This document shows positions 7,355 to 34,366 of a stretch of 45,816 bases of DNA, in pieces. Below the pieces are notes generated by a model. It saw nothing but the letters and a program-made list of their open reading frames with translations, did not search any database and was not told where the DNA came from. The translations under genes and the position numbers were made by a program. Position 1 is the stretch's first letter; every line of letters starts with the position of its first letter. The stretch covers positions 1 through 45,816 of the forward strand of contig CAMCTW010000002.1 in NCBI GenBank assembly GCA_945878645.1, in the 5' to 3' direction. This DNA is from Bifidobacterium breve. Its GTDB lineage: Bacteria; Actinomycetota; Acidimicrobiia; Acidimicrobiales; Acidimicrobilacustridaceae.

Positions 7355-8944
7355 ATGACTGATGCTTCTTGGGACACTGCCGACCTCAACCGACCGGTAT
7401 ATGCCGCTGATCTGATTATCAACGCGCTGAACCGAACCCCGGACAATCCGGCGGTGAACATCATCGGTCAGCGCGAAATGACCGCGCGTGAAATGAGCGC
7501 GATGGTTAGCCGCTATTCGCAGGCACTGGCATCTAAAGGTTTGACGCAGGGCAAGCAGTTGTCGGTTCTCGCTTTAAACCGACCGGAAGTGCTGTTCAAC
7601 ATGGCGGCGAACCAGGTCAATGCCACGCGTTCGACGCCCTTGCACCCGATGGGTTCGGTCGATGATCAGGCCTATGTGTTGTCTGACTGTGGGGCCGAAG
7701 CACTTGTTTTTGATCCAGACAATTTCACTGATCGGGCGCGTGAACTTGCTGAGCGTGTTCCCACGATCAAGCACTTCCTTTCACTCGGTCCATGTGAATT
7801 CGGTGAGGATCTCGACGCGCTCGCGATGACATTTGAGCCGAAACCACTTGTCGCTCCGCATGTTCAGGCAGAGGACCTCGCGGGCATCTCCTACTCAGGG
7901 GGAACGACAGGAAAACCCAAAGGAATCATGAGTAGCTATCGCGGCGGCGCCGCGATGGTTCAGATTCAAATGTCCGAATGGCAGTGGCCGGAAGAAGTGC
8001 GGTTCCTGATCTGCACGCCACTTTCGCATGCAGGTGCAGCGTTTTTCACGCCCACGCTGCTCAAGGGAGGTTCGCTTACCGTTCTTCCAGGTTTTGATCC
8101 CGAGAAGTTCATGCAGACAGTGCAGGACCATCGCATCACCGCCACGATGTTGGTGCCGACGATGATTTATGTACTTCTTGATCATCCCAAGTTCGATCAG
8201 TACGACCTGTCGAGTCTAGAAACCATCTTCTACGGAGCATCGGCCATTTCGCCGACGCGCTTGGCCGAAGGTATTCGCCGTATGGGACCGATCTTCTTCC
8301 AGTTCTACGGCCAAGCGGAATGCCCGATGACGATCACCGTTTTGCGCAAAGAAGACCACGACCCCAACAACCTTGAACGGTTGGCCAGTTGTGGGCGTCC
8401 CGTGCCGTGGCTGCACGTTGCGCTTCTCGATGACGATGGCAACGTGGTGCCACACGGCGAACCTGGTGAAATCTGTGTGCGCGGTCCGCTCAACATGAAG
8501 GGCTATCTCGGAAAGCCTGAGCAAACCGCCGAGGCCTTCCAACACGGATGGCTCCATACCGGCGATGTGGCCCGAGCCGACGACGAGGGGTTCCTCTATA
8601 TCGTCGATCGCAAGAAGGACATGATCATCACTGGTGGCTTCAACGTTTACCCACGTGAAGTTGAAGATGTCATCTCTACCCACCCTGCTGTTTCAGCGGT
8701 AGCGGTGATTGGTGTCCCCGATGAGCGGTGGGGCGAGTCGGTCAAGGCGGTTGTTGTGGTTCGTCCTGGTGCGTCGGTCGACGCTGAAGAACTCATCGCA
8801 TTGGTGAAGGAAGCAAAGGGTTCCGTGCAGGCACCAAAGACGGTGGACTTCATTGACGCCATCCCGTTGAGCGCACTCGGCAAACCCGACAAGAAGACAC
8901 TCCGTGCTCAGTACTGGGGTGACGGTGGCCGGCAGGTGAACTGA
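7355..8944 (+). CDS. Acyl-CoA synthetase / AMP-dependent ligase (FadD family)
   Basis: YSGGTTGKPKG, YGQAECPM, GWLHTGDVARADDEGFLYIVDRKKDMIITGGFNVYPREVE, ALGKPDKK. Confidence 0.93.
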   Translation: MTDASWDTADLNRPVYAADLIINALNRTPDNPAVNIIGQREMTAREMSAMVSRYSQALASKGLTQGKQLSVLALNRPEVLFNMAANQVNATRSTPLHPMGSVDDQAYVLSDCGAEALVFDPDNFTDRARELAERVPTIKHFLSLGPCEFGEDLDALAMTFEPKPLVAPHVQAEDLAGISYSGGTTGKPKGIMSSYRGGAAMVQIQMSEWQWPEEVRFLICTPLSHAGAAFFTPTLLKGGSLTVLPGFDPEKFMQTVQDHRITATMLVPTMIYVLLDHPKFDQYDLSSLETIFYGASAISPTRLAEGIRRMGPIFFQFYGQAECPMTITVLRKEDHDPNNLERLASCGRPVPWLHVALLDDDGNVVPHGEPGEICVRGPLNMKGYLGKPEQTAEAFQHGWLHTGDVARADDEGFLYIVDRKKDMIITGGFNVYPREVEDVISTHPAVSAVAVIGVPDERWGESVKAVVVVRPGASVDAEELIALVKEAKGSVQAPKTVDFIDAIPLSALGKPDKKTLRAQYWGDGGRQVN

Positions 8945-9141
8945 CCTTCGGGGCCTTCCATGTCTCTCGCAGTTCCGGCGAAATAGTTCACTGAGGAAAC
9001 TTTCTCTGAGGGTTGTCTGCCGGTAATGTCGTTGGTTCATCGCCCAGCCACTAGGTCCGATTCGGAACACTAAGGTGGCGTGGGTCACAGTTCGATAACG
9101 ATTCGCAGCAACGTTCCTCATCTGGGACGAGGGGGCACAGA

Positions 9142-11412
9142 GTGCAGACATTCCTGCAATACACAATCTTGGGTCTTGCTCTTGGTGGCGCCTATTTCAT
9201 CGCCGCATCCGGTCTTGTTGTGACTTACACGACCTCGGGCATCTTCAACTTCGCCCAGGGCGCAATCGCGATGCTCGCGGTCTTCACCTACTGGCAGTTC
9301 CGGTGGGGATGGGGATGGCCAGCCCCTCTGGCCCTACTCATGGTGCTCGGCATTTTGGCCCCACTTCTGGGAGCGGTTCTCTATCAGGTCGTGATGAAAA
9401 ATCTTCGTGGCACCTCTGAAGTCACCAAGATCATTGTGTCGATCGGCGTCATGCTCGGTTTGCAGGCGCTGGCAACCTGGGTTTGGAGCCCAACCTCAAG
9501 TACGCCGCGTCAGTTCCAAAAGTTCTTTGGACCAAACGCATTCGCTCATTTTGGAAGCCTCAGGGTTCCGTGGCACATCATCATTTCGTTCATTATCGCC
9601 ATCGCCATTGCGGTTGGTATTCGGTTTCTTTTTGTCCGCACCCGTTCTGGTGTTGCTATGCGAGCAGTTGTCGACGATCCGGAGCTCCTGCAGCTCAATG
9701 GCGGTCGCCCTGAACGTCTCGCGATGATCTCCTGGGCCGGTGGCTCATTCCTTGCAGCGCTGGCTGGCATCCTCATCCAGCCGATGATCGGTTCGGCCAT
9801 GAGCGCAGGGGCACTCACCCTTCTTGTCATCGATGCGTTCGCTGCCGCGATGTTTGGTCGCCTGCGCAGCCTTCCTCGCACCTTTATGGGTGCCCTCATC
9901 ATTGCTCTCACTACGACCTATGTCGTGGCCTACTTCCCGAGCAAGTGGACCTGGTCGAGTTCATTCCGCAACTCACTGCCGATGATCTTCCTTTTCATCA
10001 TTCTTCTTGTGCTTCCGCAGGATCGTCTTCGAGGGGCAACGGTTCTCCGGCTTCGTGAACGATTCCGTATGCCTTCAATACGTACGGCATGGATTGCTGG
10101 GCTCACGATGATGATCGTGGTGTTCTGCCTCAAGGTCATCATGGCCAAGACCGGCGTCAATACGCTCACGCTTGCCCTCACCTTTGCGATTATTGCGTTG
10201 TCGTTGGTGCTCCTCACGGGCTTTGCTGGCGAGATCAACCTCGCTGCGCTGTCGTTTGGCGCTATCGCTGTCATGGTCGTGTATCACTTCGGAATTTCCG
10301 GTACCGGCACCGAGGCGCGCACAACGCTTTGGGGGATCCTTCTCGCTGCGGTGGTGACTGCTCTGGTCGGCGCACTCATTGCATTGCCTGCACTGCGATT
10401 GCGAGGCCTTTATTTGGCTCTCGCCACAATGGCATTTGGTGTGTTCATTTCCCGCATGGTGCTTACAGAGCGCACCGAGAGGGAAATCTTTGGTTTGAAG
10501 TTCACGCTGTTCACATCGGGTCAGCTTGCAATTCCACGGCCAAAAATCGGCCCGATTGACTTCAATGGTCAGGACGCGTTCCTTTTCCTTTGCGCAGGGT
10601 TATTCGTCGCCATCGGAATCGGCATGGTGTACCTGCGCCACAGTGGGTACGGGCGCCGCTTGACGGCAATGAAAGACAGCCCGGCAGCATCGGCCACACT
10701 TGGCATGAGCGTTGTCCGCCTCAAGCTTTCGATTTTTATGATGTCGGCAGCAATCGCCGGAATTGGTGGCGTCATGATGGCAGCGCAGGTCGGCACCGTG
10801 AATTCCGATCGCTTCGACATCTTCTTGAGTCTTGCCCTCGCGATGATCACGGTTGTTGGTGGCATCGGCTACGTGTCGGGAGCGTTGTTCGCTGGGATCT
10901 TCTTGATCGCATTTATCGAAGCGTTGAATCTCATGCTTAAGAAGTTTGCTGTCGATTACTCGAGCCTCGAGGCGATCTTTATGTTCTTCATCTCAGCGGT
11001 CACGGTGCTGCCGGCAACGATCGGCATCACCATGGGCAAGAACCCCTCGGGTGCGGTGAGCGACATCGTCGAAGGAATGAATAAGGTCAAGCAGTCCAAG
11101 CCTCTCATGATCACAGTCATCGGTCTTGAAGCAGCGATCTGGGCGCTTACTGCCACGGAAGTCATCACCAACTGGCACTTCGTGATCTTGACGTTCGCGA
11201 ATCTCATCCTCGTGCCGATAGTCGGCGGGAAGTTCCTCATGGCCCGAGCGATGCGGGGTGTTCCAAAACCAGTACCGCCCGAACTGATCGGAATCGATCG
11301 CCCATTTACCGATGAAGATCTGGCCGCTATGGATCAGGCGCTGAATCTCGATGGCGTTGTGATCCCGAGTTCGACCACCGTGCGAGAGGAGCCGGCAAAT
11401 GCCTCTGCTTGA
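9142..11412 (+). CDS. Branched-chain amino-acid-type ABC transporter, fused LivH-LivM permease
   Basis: GTG start; LivH part GLALGGAYFIAASGLVVTYTTSGIFNFAQGAIAM and LivM part GFAGEINLAALSFGAIAVMV...LRLRGLYLALATMAFG in one 756-aa ORF. Confidence 0.92.
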   Translation: MQTFLQYTILGLALGGAYFIAASGLVVTYTTSGIFNFAQGAIAMLAVFTYWQFRWGWGWPAPLALLMVLGILAPLLGAVLYQVVMKNLRGTSEVTKIIVSIGVMLGLQALATWVWSPTSSTPRQFQKFFGPNAFAHFGSLRVPWHIIISFIIAIAIAVGIRFLFVRTRSGVAMRAVVDDPELLQLNGGRPERLAMISWAGGSFLAALAGILIQPMIGSAMSAGALTLLVIDAFAAAMFGRLRSLPRTFMGALIIALTTTYVVAYFPSKWTWSSSFRNSLPMIFLFIILLVLPQDRLRGATVLRLRERFRMPSIRTAWIAGLTMMIVVFCLKVIMAKTGVNTLTLALTFAIIALSLVLLTGFAGEINLAALSFGAIAVMVVYHFGISGTGTEARTTLWGILLAAVVTALVGALIALPALRLRGLYLALATMAFGVFISRMVLTERTEREIFGLKFTLFTSGQLAIPRPKIGPIDFNGQDAFLFLCAGLFVAIGIGMVYLRHSGYGRRLTAMKDSPAASATLGMSVVRLKLSIFMMSAAIAGIGGVMMAAQVGTVNSDRFDIFLSLALAMITVVGGIGYVSGALFAGIFLIAFIEALNLMLKKFAVDYSSLEAIFMFFISAVTVLPATIGITMGKNPSGAVSDIVEGMNKVKQSKPLMITVIGLEAAIWALTATEVITNWHFVILTFANLILVPIVGGKFLMARAMRGVPKPVPPELIGIDRPFTDEDLAAMDQALNLDGVVIPSSTTVREEPANASA

Positions 11413-12139
11413 AACTATTGGCGTCAAAGTTCGTTTCGGCGGAAACATTGCGCTTGACGATGTTTCGATTTCGGTCGAAGCCGGAAGTGTCACCGGGCTC
11501 ATTGGCCCAAACGGTGCGGGTAAGACCACGTTATTCAACACGATCACTGGGCTTCAGCCACTCACTGGTGGGAAGATCATCTTTAATGACAAAGACGTCA
11601 CCAAGGAACCACCGCATAAGCGCACTCGTATGGGTCTTGCCCGCACGTTTCAGCGCCTCGAATTGTTTACGACGCTCTCGGTGCGCGACAACGTTCGCGT
11701 TGCCGGCGAAATCCGTAACCACTGGAGCCTTCGGACCACGAAGATGGACGTCAATGCCGAAACCGATCGCATCATCAGCCTGGTCGGGTTGAGCGATGTC
11801 GCCGATCGCGAAGTTGGCGAGATTCCGACCGGAAAGGCACGAGTCGTCGAATTGGCCCGTGCCCTCATGATCCAACCGACACTTGTTCTTCTCGATGAAC
11901 CTGCTTCTGGCCAGACCGAAGAAGAAACTGGGCAGTTCGGACAACTGTTGCGTGACCTTGCTGGCGAAGGCCTCGGAATCTGCCTTGTTGAGCACGACAT
12001 GTCGTTAGTCATGCAGGTCTGCGAAACCATTCACGTGCTTGATTTCGGTCGCATGATTGCAAGTGGCTCTGCAGAGTCAGTTCGCAATAATCCGACCGTG
12101 GTCGATGCCTACCTTGGTGCTCCGGAGAGTGTCGGATGA
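11399..12139 (+). CDS. ABC transporter ATP-binding protein (LivG-like)
   Basis: GPNGAGKTTLFNTITG Walker A; VLLDEPASGQTEEE Walker B; overlaps permease gene. Confidence 0.93.
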   Translation: MPLLETIGVKVRFGGNIALDDVSISVEAGSVTGLIGPNGAGKTTLFNTITGLQPLTGGKIIFNDKDVTKEPPHKRTRMGLARTFQRLELFTTLSVRDNVRVAGEIRNHWSLRTTKMDVNAETDRIISLVGLSDVADREVGEIPTGKARVVELARALMIQPTLVLLDEPASGQTEEETGQFGQLLRDLAGEGLGICLVEHDMSLVMQVCETIHVLDFGRMIASGSAESVRNNPTVVDAYLGAPESVG

Positions 12140-12876
12140 GCGAAGCCCACTACCACGAAGATCACGGCGCAGTTGCTGGCGCACCGTTGGTTGAACTTGT
12201 CGACGTGCGCGCCGCATACGGAACCATTGAAGTGCTCCACGGGGTCAACCTTTCAGTTCCGCAAGGTTCCGTCGTTGCCCTCCTTGGCCCGAACGGCGCC
12301 GGCAAGTCCACGATCCTTAAGGTCATCTCTGGATTGCTGCCGCCCACTTCCGGCGAAGTTCGGCTCGCTGGTCGCATGGTGAATGGCGCTTCAGCTGATG
12401 AACTTGCACGCATTGGTTTGTGCACCATTCCCGAAGGTCGCGGAGTGTTTCCGAACCTCACCGTCCGAGAGAACCTTTGGATGGCGACCATGGCAGGCGT
12501 TCCGCTCGCCCAGGTTGAAGAAATCGCTTATGCCCGTTTCCCTCGTCTGGGTGAACGTCGCAAGCAGCTTGCCGGCACATTGTCCGGCGGCGAACAGCAA
12601 ATGTTGTCGATGGCACGGGCTCTGTCTGTGAATCCATCGGTACTGCTCCTCGACGAATTGTCGATGGGTCTGGCCCCGCTCGTCGTGGCCAACCTCTACG
12701 AGATCGTGGCTCAGGTCTCGCAAGAGGGCGTGTCGATCCTGGTGTCCGAGCAGTTTGCTCGGACGGTGTTGGGCATTGCTCAATACGCCGCGATCGTCCT
12801 CCACGGGAATATCACCAGAGTGGGTACTCCTGCTGAGCTCGAAGATGAATTGTCCGCTGCCTACCTTGGATCTTGA
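12136..12876 (+). CDS. ABC transporter ATP-binding protein (LivF-like)
   Basis: GPNGAGKSTILKVISG; LSGGEQQMLSMARAL; VLLLDELSMGLAPLVV; 4-bp overlap with LivG-like gene. Confidence 0.94.
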   Translation: MSEAHYHEDHGAVAGAPLVELVDVRAAYGTIEVLHGVNLSVPQGSVVALLGPNGAGKSTILKVISGLLPPTSGEVRLAGRMVNGASADELARIGLCTIPEGRGVFPNLTVRENLWMATMAGVPLAQVEEIAYARFPRLGERRKQLAGTLSGGEQQMLSMARALSVNPSVLLLDELSMGLAPLVVANLYEIVAQVSQEGVSILVSEQFARTVLGIAQYAAIVLHGNITRVGTPAELEDELSAAYLGS

Positions 12877-12888
12877 GACCGGAGAAAA

Positions 12889-13257
12889 ATGGAAACCACT
12901 GGTGATCGCATTGAGCAGTTCAAGTCCGAAGTGACGGACCTGAACTTGAAGACTGGTAACCCCAGTCGAGAAAAAACACTTCAGACAATCGGCTTTATCA
13001 TGATGCTCGTTGGCATCATCGGTGGAATCATTTGCTACGTCGGCGCAAAGAACGCGAGCGGCGACGTTGGTATCGCAGCGGCCAAGATTCAAGAGCAGAT
13101 TGTCTTCGCAATCTGGTTCCTGATCCTTACCGTGGTTGGCGCAGCGATGTTCCTCCGCTACGCGTTGGCGAGTTTCCTGCGAATGTGGCTTCTTCGTCAG
13201 CTCTACGAAGGTCAGGCCAACACTGACCGAATCGTCGACGCAGTCTCTAAGCGCTGA
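12889..13257 (+). CDS. Small two-TM membrane protein of unknown function, ABC-module associated
   Basis: 122 aa; hydrophobic segments TIGFIMMLVGIIGGIICYVGA and IVFAIWFLILTVVGAAMFLRYAL; paralogue at 34010-34366 in the same relative position. Confidence 0.82.
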   Translation: METTGDRIEQFKSEVTDLNLKTGNPSREKTLQTIGFIMMLVGIIGGIICYVGAKNASGDVGIAAAKIQEQIVFAIWFLILTVVGAAMFLRYALASFLRMWLLRQLYEGQANTDRIVDAVSKR

Positions 13258-28786: not shown

Positions 28787-28871
28787 GGCGCTTTTGTGCC
28801 GACCGTCACACAGGAGTTTGTGAATTCGGTTATGGTTCGGAAAGTTGTTCAATAAACCCAGGGGGAATCCA

Positions 28872-30251
28872 GTGAAGCGAATTAGAGCAGGTGTGCTCAT
28901 AGCGGCTCTCAGCGTCAGCATCCTTGCTGTCGGTTGTGGCCGTAGTGGGTCAGACAGCGAAAATGGTTCGGGCGAAAGTCCCGCAGCCAAGGCAAATGCC
29001 AATTGCACAAAAGAAGCACTGCAAGCTACTGAAATTGGCGTGAGCGCGGACACCATCACCGTTGAGGTCATGGCCGATACCGGTTCACCTTTGGCACCTG
29101 GTTTGTTCCAGGGCAATGTCGATGCGATGAACGCCTACGCCAAGTGGGTGAACGCCAATGGCGGTGTTGGATGTCGTCAGCTCAAGGTTGAAGCCTGGGA
29201 TTCCAAGCTTGATCCGACCGAGAGCAAAAATGGCATTATCAATGCATGCAAGACCGCTGTTGCGATGGTGGGTGGCAATGCATTGTTCAACCCCGACGTG
29301 ACCGACCTTGGGAAGTGTGTTGATAAGGCAGGACAGCCGATTGGTATTCCCGACTTTGCTGCTCTCGCCAACGATGTGAACGAGCAGTGCGCTGCAAATG
29401 CTTGGATCGTTCAAGCGGTATCCGAGCCCTGCACCGGAGTAAACACCGGAGTTCGTGACCTCAAAGCTTTTGTTGGAGCAACGAACTTCTACAAGACGAT
29501 CCAACCGAATCTCAAGGGTGTCTTTCTGGTCCCTGGTGATCTGCCCACCACGGTGCAGTCATCTACCTATCAGATCGAAGCTCAGAGGTCGGCGGGCGTG
29601 ACGTGGATTGACACGATGAAGGTGTCGGGTCGTTCCGAGCAGTCAGCGTTCAACACGTACGTGCAGGCCCTGAAGACTGGCGGCGGCAACTACGCCTACA
29701 TGGGCTCAAATGACGTCGCTATGACGAAACTCCGTAAGGAAGCGAAGGCACAGGGGCTCACTGGCGTCGATGTATGGGCATGTTCACTGGCCTGCTACAC
29801 CGAAAACTTCAAGACTGCTGGTGCTGATGTCGATGGCACCTATGTCTGGATGCAATTCGTTCCATTCGAGGAAGCCTCGAGCAATAAGACAGTGGAAACG
29901 TACGTGAATGCAATGGGTGGCAAGCCTGATTCCTTTGGTGCTCAGGCATGGCAGGCCGGCATGGCCTTCACTCAGGCGGTCAATGAGATCGTCGCCGAAA
30001 AGGGTGCCAACGCAATCACTCGTGCAAATATCCTCGCGAAGATGAAGACGCTTTCATTCGACGCTGGTGGTTGGATTGGCAAGGCTCGCACTTCGCCGAA
30101 GGTGTTCTCTGACTGCATGGTGATCATGCAAATCAATGGCGGCAAGTTCCAACGAGTCTTCCCCAAGGAAGTTGGCACGCTTGATTGCAAGAGTTCAAAC
30201 ATCGTGACTGTCAAGATTGATCCCGCGGCTGCTGCTGCAAATATCAAGTAG
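28872..30251 (+). CDS. ABC transporter substrate-binding lipoprotein (Liv/periplasmic-binding family)
   Basis: GTG start after CCAGGGGGAATCCA; signal VKRIRAGVLIAALSVSILAVGC with lipobox; EIGVSADTITVEVMADTGSPLAPGLFQGNVDAMNAYAKWVNANGGVGCRQLKVE. Confidence 0.87.
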   Translation: MKRIRAGVLIAALSVSILAVGCGRSGSDSENGSGESPAAKANANCTKEALQATEIGVSADTITVEVMADTGSPLAPGLFQGNVDAMNAYAKWVNANGGVGCRQLKVEAWDSKLDPTESKNGIINACKTAVAMVGGNALFNPDVTDLGKCVDKAGQPIGIPDFAALANDVNEQCAANAWIVQAVSEPCTGVNTGVRDLKAFVGATNFYKTIQPNLKGVFLVPGDLPTTVQSSTYQIEAQRSAGVTWIDTMKVSGRSEQSAFNTYVQALKTGGGNYAYMGSNDVAMTKLRKEAKAQGLTGVDVWACSLACYTENFKTAGADVDGTYVWMQFVPFEEASSNKTVETYVNAMGGKPDSFGAQAWQAGMAFTQAVNEIVAEKGANAITRANILAKMKTLSFDAGGWIGKARTSPKVFSDCMVIMQINGGKFQRVFPKEVGTLDCKSSNIVTVKIDPAAAAANIK

Positions 30252-30336: not shown

Positions 30337-32541
30337 ATGCGGCTCAAAGTCAGTCCACGGCTGATTTCCGCGATTGTCGTTGGTCTCGTCATCCTTTTCT
30401 TGGTCAACAAGAACTGGGGAGGAGCGTCAATTAGCGCGAAGACAATTTCGTCGTTCCTCGTTGTAGGTATTGCCCTCGGTGGCATTTATGCCATTACTGC
30501 CGGTGGCCTCGTTGTTACCTACGCCACAACTGGCATTTTCAATTTTGCCCATGCGGCTATCGGATGTTTTTTGGCCTTTTGTTATTGGCAACTCACGGTG
30601 AAGCAAGGATTACCGACGGTGGTTGCACTGATCATCACGTTATTTGTGATCGCTCCCGCGATTGGGTTCCTACTCGACAAAGTGATTATGCGGCGCCTCC
30701 GCGATGCCGCACTTGTTGTGCAACTCATGGTCACTGTTGGCCTGATGCTCACATTTATGGGCATCACGCTCACCATTTGGTCTCCAAAAACAGGCCGCTC
30801 CTTGCCCCAGTTCTTTCAAAACACTCAAGGCGTGCAGTTTGGCGATGTCACCGCAACCTGGCATCGGATTATCACCGTTGTCGTTGCGCTGCTTGTTGCT
30901 CTCGGATTGCGATTTCTCCTGTACAAAACGCGCTTAGGCATTTCGATGCGCGCCGTTGTTGACAGTCGCAGTCTGGCTGGCCTCACGGGGGCAAAGCCTT
31001 CGATCATTTCTGGTTCCTCGTGGGCTTTGGGTTGTATGACTGCCGGCCTTGCCGGCATTCTGATCGCACCCGAGACCGGTCTTGTGGTCGAGAACCTCGC
31101 ACTCATCATTGTTGTGGCTTCAGCCGCTGCTGCGATCGCGCAGCTCAAATCAATTCCCATGGCGTTTATTGGTGGTTTGGTGATTGGTCTGGCGAAGTCG
31201 TTTTCGGCGGTGTATCTCGAATGGGGCAAGGACTGGGCCTATGCCGACGAGGCCATTCCGGCTGCGATTTTGTTTATTGCTCTTCTGTTCCTGCCCATGG
31301 CCCGGCTCGAAACCGGAAAGATCCGAATTACCAAACGCACTGAGCGCCTTACCAAACCTTGGGAGGCCGCACTCGGGGCTGGTGTGATGATCGCAATTGT
31401 TGGCGCGTGGGCGAATGGCTGGATTCCCTGGATCAGTGGCACGACCTTCGGCGAGCGCTCGACGGTCTGGCTAGGCCGAGGCGCTGGCTTCCTCGTCCTC
31501 GGTCTGGTCATGCTCTCGCTCATCCCATTGATTGGTTGGGCGGGGCAGGTGAGTTTCGCCAACTACGCGATCGCCGGCATCGGTGCGGTGCTGTTCTCTC
31601 ACTTCGGCGGTCAGAACGGCGATGCCCTCGGCATCGTGTGGGTCATGCTGATTTGTGCACCGCTTGGTCTGGCCATCGCGCTTCCCGCTCTCCGACTAAA
31701 GGGTCTGTATCTCGCTCTCGCAACGATGGCATTCGCCGAAGTGGCCGACAAAGTACTTATTCGTCACCCAAGCATGCTCGACCCGTCGGCGACCGGCGTT
31801 TTGTTCAAGCCGGTGAACTTCTTCGGCATCACGATTAGTTCAAGTGCGAGTGATCGCAAAGCTTTCCTGATGTTTTTGGTCATCGCGTTTGCATTGCTGT
31901 TCTTTATGCTTGAGATGCTTCGCCGAACGCGTTGGGCACGGCGCTGGATCGCTATGTCTGATTCCCCGGCAGCTTCGGCCACTATCGGCGTCAATCTGAC
32001 CACCACGAAGATGATGGTGTTCATGTTGTCCGGAGCAATGGCCGGATTCGCCGGTTGCATGATTGGCCTGCAGCGTGGTGCTTTGTCCGTCGATTCGTTC
32101 CCCCTCTTTGCCGGGCTACCCCTCGTGCTGCTCATAGCGGTTCAGGGGGTTCGCTATCCCGTTGCTGCCTTCATGGGCTTCATCGGTTTGGCATCTTTTC
32201 CCGCGCTTTTCGAGGTGCTCGGTAAGCCGTCATGGCTCACGGCGATCGAACTCATCGGTCCAGGTATCGCAGCAATAGCCATGGCGTATCGACCCGAAGG
32301 GGCGGTCTTCTATTCCGGTCGAGACCTCGCCGGCCTCTTACCCTGGCGAAAAGATGCACGTGAGGAAAAGGCGCTTGCCGTCGCCAAAGAACGAGAACAA
32401 AACATAGGCAAAGACGAGATCGGCGACATGGGTCTGACCCGCCCGTTCAGTGCCGACAAAGTTGCTCAACTCGACCGGGTCCTCGATATCACAGACCTTG
32501 TCGACGAACACAAGATGGCCCCAACCGGAGGCGCGTCATGA
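30337..32541 (+). CDS. Branched-chain amino-acid-type ABC transporter, fused LivH-LivM permease
   Basis: GIALGGIYAITAGGLVVTYATTGIFNFAHAAIG and GWAGQVSFANYAIAGIGAVL...LRLKGLYLALATMAFAE in one 734-aa ORF; paralogue of 9142-11412. Confidence 0.92.
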   Translation: MRLKVSPRLISAIVVGLVILFLVNKNWGGASISAKTISSFLVVGIALGGIYAITAGGLVVTYATTGIFNFAHAAIGCFLAFCYWQLTVKQGLPTVVALIITLFVIAPAIGFLLDKVIMRRLRDAALVVQLMVTVGLMLTFMGITLTIWSPKTGRSLPQFFQNTQGVQFGDVTATWHRIITVVVALLVALGLRFLLYKTRLGISMRAVVDSRSLAGLTGAKPSIISGSSWALGCMTAGLAGILIAPETGLVVENLALIIVVASAAAAIAQLKSIPMAFIGGLVIGLAKSFSAVYLEWGKDWAYADEAIPAAILFIALLFLPMARLETGKIRITKRTERLTKPWEAALGAGVMIAIVGAWANGWIPWISGTTFGERSTVWLGRGAGFLVLGLVMLSLIPLIGWAGQVSFANYAIAGIGAVLFSHFGGQNGDALGIVWVMLICAPLGLAIALPALRLKGLYLALATMAFAEVADKVLIRHPSMLDPSATGVLFKPVNFFGITISSSASDRKAFLMFLVIAFALLFFMLEMLRRTRWARRWIAMSDSPAASATIGVNLTTTKMMVFMLSGAMAGFAGCMIGLQRGALSVDSFPLFAGLPLVLLIAVQGVRYPVAAFMGFIGLASFPALFEVLGKPSWLTAIELIGPGIAAIAMAYRPEGAVFYSGRDLAGLLPWRKDAREEKALAVAKEREQNIGKDEIGDMGLTRPFSADKVAQLDRVLDITDLVDEHKMAPTGGAS

Positions 32542-33281
32542 GTTCCATTCTCAGCACTCAAGATGTTGTTGTGCGCTTCGGCGTGCTTCAGGCGGTGTCA
32601 CAGGCATCGATCGAAGTGATCGAAGGGCGAGTCACCGGACTGATCGGCCCCAATGGGGCCGGCAAGACAACGCTGTTCAACGTCATCACCGGATTGCAGG
32701 AGCCAACTGCGGGCAAGGTATTTTTCGACGGTAAGGACATCACGAACAAGACTCCGTTTAAGCGGGCTCGTTTAGGAATCGCACGAACGTTTCAGAAACT
32801 TGAAGTATTCGGCAGCCTTTCTGCTCGCGAAAACATTTTGGTGGCTGCCGAACAGCGCAAAACCTGGGATCGTTCGGGTTTTGATCCGGCAAAGGTATGC
32901 GATGAGATTTTGGCCAAAGTAGGCCTTTCTCATGTTTCAGAGTTCATGGTCGGAACCCTTCCAACCGGAACCGCTCGACTCGTGGAATTAGCGCGTGCCC
33001 TTGCGTCTAACCCGCGAGTGCTCCTGCTCGATGAGCCCTCCTCTGGTTTAAACGAAGAAGAGACTGAAGAGATGGCGGCCTTGCTCAAGACATTTGTCGA
33101 AGAAGGGCTTGCCGTGCTCCTTGTTGAGCACGACATGTCATTTGTTATGGGTACGTGTGAGTACATCCATGTTCTTGATTTCGGAGTCATCATTGCCGAG
33201 GGAACGCCGGCCGAAGTGCAGGCCGATTCGCATGTGCAAGCCGCCTATCTGGGCACCAAGACCGAGGAGCAAGCGTCATGA
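32538..33281 (+). CDS. ABC transporter ATP-binding protein (LivG-like)
   Basis: GPNGAGKTTLFNVITG; VLLLDEPSSGLNEEE; 4-bp overlap with permease. Confidence 0.94.
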   Translation: MSSILSTQDVVVRFGVLQAVSQASIEVIEGRVTGLIGPNGAGKTTLFNVITGLQEPTAGKVFFDGKDITNKTPFKRARLGIARTFQKLEVFGSLSARENILVAAEQRKTWDRSGFDPAKVCDEILAKVGLSHVSEFMVGTLPTGTARLVELARALASNPRVLLLDEPSSGLNEEETEEMAALLKTFVEEGLAVLLVEHDMSFVMGTCEYIHVLDFGVIIAEGTPAEVQADSHVQAAYLGTKTEEQAS

Positions 33282-33985
33282 CCCCGATCCTCGAACTGAA
33301 CAACATCCGGGGCGGCTACGGCACAATCGACGTGCTGCACGGCGTCAACCTCACACTCGAGGTCGGTCAGGTACACGCCCTTCTCGGGCCCAATGGTGCA
33401 GGTAAGACCACCACGCTTGGGATCTGCAGCGGTCAGATCCTTCCCTCTGGCGGCCAATTACTGATGAGTGGTCGCGAGGTCAACGGAGTGAGCAGCGATG
33501 TTCTCGCTCGGGCAGGCGTTTGTTTGGTTCCCGAAGGACGGGGAATTTTCCCGAACCTCACCGTGACTGAAAATCTGCGCATGTTTACCCACGCTGGCGT
33601 GTCACTGACTGATGTCCAAGACAAAGCATTTACGCAGTTCCCGCGCTTGAAGGAACGGCGCAAGCAGATCGCCGGAACGCTGTCTGGTGGCGAGCAGCAG
33701 ATGCTGGCCATGGCTCGCGCACTTGCAGTGAACCCATCGCTCCTGCTCCTCGATGAACTTTCCATGGGTCTCGCCCCATTGATTGTTGAGGAACTGTATG
33801 AACGTGTGGCAGAACTCGCAGCACAAGGTATTTCCATCCTCGTGGTGGAGCAGTTCGCCCAAGCCGTGCTGGGCGTGTCGACCGTTGCGTCGATCATGTT
33901 GCACGGACGCATCACTCGAACCGGACCTCCCGCCGAGATCGCCGAGGAACTTACCGAAGCGTATCTCGGAGGTACAACCCACTAA
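33278..33985 (+). CDS. ABC transporter ATP-binding protein (LivF-like)
   Basis: GPNGAGKTTTLGICSG; LSGGEQQMLAMARAL; LLLLDELSMGLAPLIV; 4-bp overlap. Confidence 0.94.
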   Translation: MTPILELNNIRGGYGTIDVLHGVNLTLEVGQVHALLGPNGAGKTTTLGICSGQILPSGGQLLMSGREVNGVSSDVLARAGVCLVPEGRGIFPNLTVTENLRMFTHAGVSLTDVQDKAFTQFPRLKERRKQIAGTLSGGEQQMLAMARALAVNPSLLLLDELSMGLAPLIVEELYERVAELAAQGISILVVEQFAQAVLGVSTVASIMLHGRITRTGPPAEIAEELTEAYLGGTTH

Positions 33986-34009
33986 GAAGCCCAGCACAAC
34001 GGAGGAAAT

Positions 34010-34366
34010 ATGAGTAACACTGAAACCACCCCGTCGGACCGCCTCCAGGAGTTCCAGGGCGAAGTCGACGCAATGAAGGTTGACGGAGGCAAGGCCAATC
34101 CGGAGCGAACATGGGTCATCCTTGGTGCCCTGTTGATGATCGCCGGCATTGTGCTGTCACTCATCGCTTGGCTGACCCTTCAAGGCAGCGGCAAAGGCGC
34201 AAAGACCGAGGACCTTCTCGCTATGGGAACATTCGGACTCGTCCTCGCCGTCGTGGGCGCGGCGCTCTTTATCGTGATGTCGCTGCGTCGTTACTTCCGC
34301 TACTGGCTTGTTCGTCTCATCTTCGAACAGCGCGAAGCGGCCGATCGCATTTCAGGTAAGAACTAG
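34010..34366 (+). CDS. Small two-TM membrane protein of unknown function, ABC-module associated
   Basis: 118 aa; DRLQEFQGEVDAMKV...NPERTWVILGALLMIAGIVLSLIAWL and GLVLAVVGAALFIVMSLRRYFRYWLVRLIFEQ; homologous to 12889-13257. Confidence 0.82.
   Translation: MSNTETTPSDRLQEFQGEVDAMKVDGGKANPERTWVILGALLMIAGIVLSLIAWLTLQGSGKGAKTEDLLAMGTFGLVLAVVGAALFIVMSLRRYFRYWLVRLIFEQREAADRISGKN

Follow-up and report, generated by a model that had tools for sequence, protein, structure and literature searches.

Two small membrane protein genes in Liv-type transporter modules

We analysed a stretch of 45,816 nucleotides (contig CAMCTW010000002.1, positions 1 to 45,816; hereafter the window) that carries two ABC transporter modules of the Liv type. 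In each module, a small gene follows the gene of the LivF-like ATPase, and these two small genes are the subject of the present study:

12889..13257, + strand: small two-transmembrane protein of module 1, 122 aa (livF-adjacent open reading frame, homology, hydropathy, dN/dS, structure model)
34010..34366, + strand: small two-transmembrane protein of module 2, 118 aa (livF-adjacent open reading frame, homology, hydropathy, dN/dS)

An earlier note, made from the DNA sequence alone, had described a pair of proteins of about 120 aa with the same layout, encoded 12–24 bp after LivF-like genes. Translation, alignment and hydropathy agree with this description. The module 1 protein reads DRIEQFKSEV...NPSREKT, VVGAAMF and RMWLLRQLYE, and the module 2 protein DRLQEFQGEV...NPERT, VVGAALF and RYWLVRLIFE. 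In this single pairwise comparison they share 29% identity over 113 residues (E=1e-19), and by this alignment the two are clear homologues. Hydropathy gives two transmembrane segments in each (residues 34-52 and 71-89 in module 1, 35-54 and 74-92 in module 2). The gap to livF measures 12 nt in module 1 (12876 to 12889) and 24 nt in module 2 (33985 to 34010). Furthermore, GGAG stands immediately 5' of the ATG at 12889, and the TGA of the module 1 gene overlaps the ATG of the following short-chain dehydrogenase/reductase (SDR) gene (13257).

When the two genes were compared to orthologues with the Nei-Gojobori method (nine comparisons), nonsynonymous divergence (dN) was 0.02-0.38 and synonymous divergence (dS) 0.47-1.43, with dN/dS of about 0.04-0.34. 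As dN is well below dS, both genes code for protein and evolve under purifying selection; they are real genes and not chance open reading frames. Neither protein matched anything above the curated cut-offs of Pfam-A and NCBIfam, where only weak transmembrane-like matches appeared, and the relatives that we scanned likewise stayed below the Pfam and NCBIfam cut-offs. In the open-access literature we found no account of a Liv subunit of this kind.

Homologues are linked to Liv operons

To describe the distribution of the family, we used a profile of the two window paralogues. Among 37 genomes of the window's own family, 36 contain homologues. The small gene lies directly after LivF in all 30 neighbourhoods fetched from this family, with LivG and the permease LivHM (a fusion of LivH and LivM) upstream in 29; in the remaining one the contig ends first. 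Within the window's order, 249 genomes were sampled and about 70 of them have homologues (E below about 1e-7); profile searches also find them sporadically elsewhere in the phylum. Many of the sampled genomes are incomplete assemblies, and the collection was scanned with a narrower alignment, the many-member family alignment being too variable. Those loci that carry an organism name come from Acidimicrobiia, Acidimicrobiales, Microthrixaceae or otherwise actinobacterial metagenome-assembled genomes. When one distant member was used to search plasmids, nothing was found.

According to the earlier note, homologues mostly unlinked to Liv-type operons would refute the idea of an accessory subunit. 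This was examined in 124 hits at E<=1e-8 (115 unique sequences, some loci being present under two records), from loci that were mostly picked via the small gene alone and in a minority (some of L184-L191) via LivHM. A Liv gene lies within 10 kb of 121 of the 124 homologues, in 119 of these on the same strand, and the other three are located on contigs of only 2.5-3.7 kb. The small gene begins at most 300 nt after LivF in 92 of the 124. At L140 and L141 it is found between LivHM and LivF; since the gene order is altered there and the gene is still Liv-linked, the linkage survives rearrangement. The linkage data thus do not refute the earlier idea.

The small gene co-occurs with fused permeases and with a permease tail motif

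The remaining parts of the two modules in the window are as follows:

9142..11412, + strand: fused LivH-LivM permease, module 1 (N-terminal half UrtB/LivH-like, C-terminal half LivM/UrtC-like, below equivalog cut-offs)
11275..11355, + strand: C-terminal tail motif of this permease, PPELIGIDRPFTDEDLAAMDQALNLDG (coordinates counted from the translation)
11399..12139, + strand: LivG-like ATPase, module 1 (NCBIfam match)
12136..12876, + strand: LivF-like ATPase, module 1 (NCBIfam match)
28845..30251, + strand: substrate-binding protein, module 2 (Peripla_BP_6 match)
30337..32541, + strand: fused LivH-LivM permease, module 2 (NCBIfam matches to both domains)
32416..32496, + strand: C-terminal tail motif of this permease, EIGDMGLTRPFSADKVAQLDRVLDITD (coordinates counted from the translation)
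32538..33281, + strand: LivG-like ATPase, module 2 (NCBIfam match)
33278..33985, + strand: LivF-like ATPase, module 2 (NCBIfam match)

In each module the LivH- and LivM-like domains are joined in one chain. The association with such fused permeases, also proposed earlier, is seen in the sampled genomes of the order: LivHM is matched in 69 of the 70 genomes that carry the small gene (Fisher p=7e-42, with no correction made for common descent). A broader profile adds a small-gene match in 7 of the 20 genomes that had LivHM only; some of these matches are partial, and the remaining genomes have none at the sensitivity of that profile.

In permeases linked to the first branch of the small-protein family, the C-terminus often consists of an acidic motif, xELxGIDRPFTxxDxxxxDxxLxLD, like the one in PPELIGIDRPFTDEDLAAMDQALNLDG (a second branch is described below). 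An initial 95-residue model of the tail extended into the general LivM end (NPxG), so that it separated the permeases poorly and matched some that are not linked to the first branch; it was discarded on these grounds. The motif-only model, chosen after the result of the longer model had been seen, was built from the window's own family and tested on loci outside it. It matched 33 of 61 held-out LivHM linked to the first branch vs 0 of 45 others, namely 0/23 linked to the second branch and 0/22 without a small gene. This correlation of the permease tail with the small gene is new here.

In a tree of LivHM, most permeases without a small gene occupy their own part. The exception is genome G201, both of whose LivHM fall inside a 20-member clade (support 0.999) with 17 small-gene-linked members. 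No small gene was found in G201, and both of its LivHM tails end at the start of the motif. Read directly, its locus L184 contains a tandem LivHM pair, one LivG and one LivF, with no small gene after LivF in the stretch read. The joint absence of gene and tail is suggestive; it concerns one lineage and is not proof.

As to the other module components, the ATPases in both modules match LivG/UrtD and UrtE/LivF best in NCBIfam, with scores under the equivalog cut-offs. A binding-protein gene (Peripla_BP_6) is present at module 2, and none was seen adjoining module 1 (window 8944-9142) or its close relatives L035, L037, L040, L042, L046, L048 and L050. The window's own genome has a third Liv module on contig C6 (L063:3397-8483), in which a 757 aa open reading frame, composed of an N-terminal multi-transmembrane MFS-like region and a LivF-like ATPase, precedes a 936 aa LivHM-LivG fusion; the small protein has no match there.

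Neighbouring genes and substrate

The neighbours in the window include acyl-CoA dehydrogenases, an AMP-binding ligase, SDRs and amidohydrolases. Among the 30 family loci, SDR genes occur in 20, acyl-CoA dehydrogenase in 16 and Amidohydro_2 in 15. At loci outside the family, the commonest CoA-type neighbour is found in 20 of 97, i.e. at most about 21%. The earlier guess of a steroid or CoA-pathway substrate thus receives no support from the neighbourhoods, steroid markers not having been searched for.

These data also bear on the view that the small protein is a bystander, carried by catabolic operons and playing no part in transport. Such a view can draw on the fact that operon linkage alone is no proof of function, and that other operon genes co-vary with LivF too. 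We consider it very improbable, as the linkage is kept across many families and altered gene orders while the metabolic neighbours change, and as one lineage has neither the small gene nor the permease tail.

A second branch with a cysteine-containing tail

The distant members of the second branch retain the transmembrane hairpin (GWYGAAHT..EQIPYLISGGLLGL) and often have an extra C-terminal tail with HxxxC and CxxC. They are mostly Liv-linked, commonly about 1-1.5 kb after LivF; some matches are partial, some lie on the opposite strand to the Liv genes and some on contigs too short to judge. In the cases read, a long open reading frame of about 500 aa lies between LivF and the small gene. At L105, L107, L110, L144 and L173, it spans about 480-540 aa and combines a signal-like start with a hydrophobic C-terminal end and the conserved stretch GGYQMxAxAxAIS...PSGRALASVAWPGD; no NCBIfam model matched the single member scanned.

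The HxxxC...CxxC tail (e.g. in L106, L110 and L175) resembles a putative metal site and reaches the cut-off of no model in Pfam or NCBIfam. Its conservation on the same hairpin would fit a regulator or sensor of importer activity, in which the tail would sense metal or redox state. We regard this as rather improbable, since the window members have no such tail.

Predicted anatomy and proposed role

For the module 1 protein, AlphaFold2 predicts helices at residues 4-17, 25-56 and 63-121 (mean predicted local distance difference test, pLDDT, 82; predicted template modelling score, pTM, 0.59). Its C-terminal part is basic, with 6 K/R and 3 D/E. The predicted layout is a short N-terminal helix, the first transmembrane segment, a short outside loop and the second transmembrane segment, whose extension into the cytosol would form a long basic helix (R-x-W-x-x-R...E...DR). 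The charges and the arrangement of the helices suggest that both ends are cytosolic. Searches of the PDB tell little about a helical hairpin such as is predicted here: by sequence the best match is 7qhm_J (E=0.006, transmembrane stretch only), and by fold there is no match at E <= 0.001.

The small proteins form a two-transmembrane family that the searched databases do not describe, and we propose that its members are probably accessory subunits of the Liv-type (HAAT) importers with fused LivHM in Actinomycetota. The basic helix would lie beside the permease and the ATPases, where the small protein might stabilise, assemble or gate the importer. That its docking site is the acidic tail at the C-terminus of LivHM is a weaker suggestion from sequence, which we hold to be possible and rather doubtful. 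Equally tentative is the full picture of a dedicated subunit in a large actinobacterial Liv clade, whose helix docks on the permease tail and controls transport, with a metal-binding sister version. The earlier reading is thus supported in part: its idea of an accessory subunit is in line with the linkage, the co-occurrence with LivHM and the tail motif that is missing in one gene-less lineage, and its guess about the substrate is not supported.

Several observations weigh against this proposal. The small gene is missing from some modules with a fused LivHM and is thus not required by every importer of this kind. Of the linked permeases, 28 of 61 were missed by the tail model at the threshold used; many of these look related by eye, unscored. 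As gene-less permeases mostly cluster apart, permease clade is confounded with the small gene in all but one lineage. No fusion of the small protein to a Liv protein was found, and the mirror-tree correlation (r=0.63) was set aside as uninformative because genes that share an operon should agree in this way in any case. The fused permeases without a small gene also tell against a role in which the small protein helps to assemble the large fused LivHM, or chaperones it in the membrane, and is not a lasting subunit. Small hairpin proteins can aid assembly, and the gene is linked to fused permeases; on balance we judge a chaperone unlikely.

Liv-type importers are regarded as consisting of standard components. 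If the small protein is indeed a conserved extra subunit outside the searched family libraries, this would alter the annotation and reconstitution of Liv transporters, with the permease tail as a specific candidate contact site.

Comparison with known transporter systems

The two modules share with LivFGHMJK (HAAT) importers and UrtABCDE the LivG- and LivF-like ATPases, the LivH and LivM domains and, in module 2, Peripla_BP_6. They differ in having LivH and LivM in one chain, and a C-terminal tail is often present in such permeases. To our knowledge, a small two-transmembrane protein is absent from the characterised LivFGHMJK and UrtABCDE systems.

Small membrane components are known from other ABC transporters. 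CcmD is one in the CcmABC heme complex (PMC10903887) and resembles the proposed subunit in being a small membrane part of an ABC transporter complex; the window proteins have no Pfam match to CcmD. Likewise, CbiN was absent among their Pfam matches at E up to 1. In Co/Ni energy-coupling factor (ECF) importers, CbiN/NikN is a small two-transmembrane component whose gene accompanies those of the ABC importer (PMC2667541). The window proteins are likewise small, have two transmembrane segments and are encoded with an ABC importer; CbiN/NikN serves a different ABC type. The role of the small protein might thus be likened to that of the unrelated CbiN in cobalt ECF importers.
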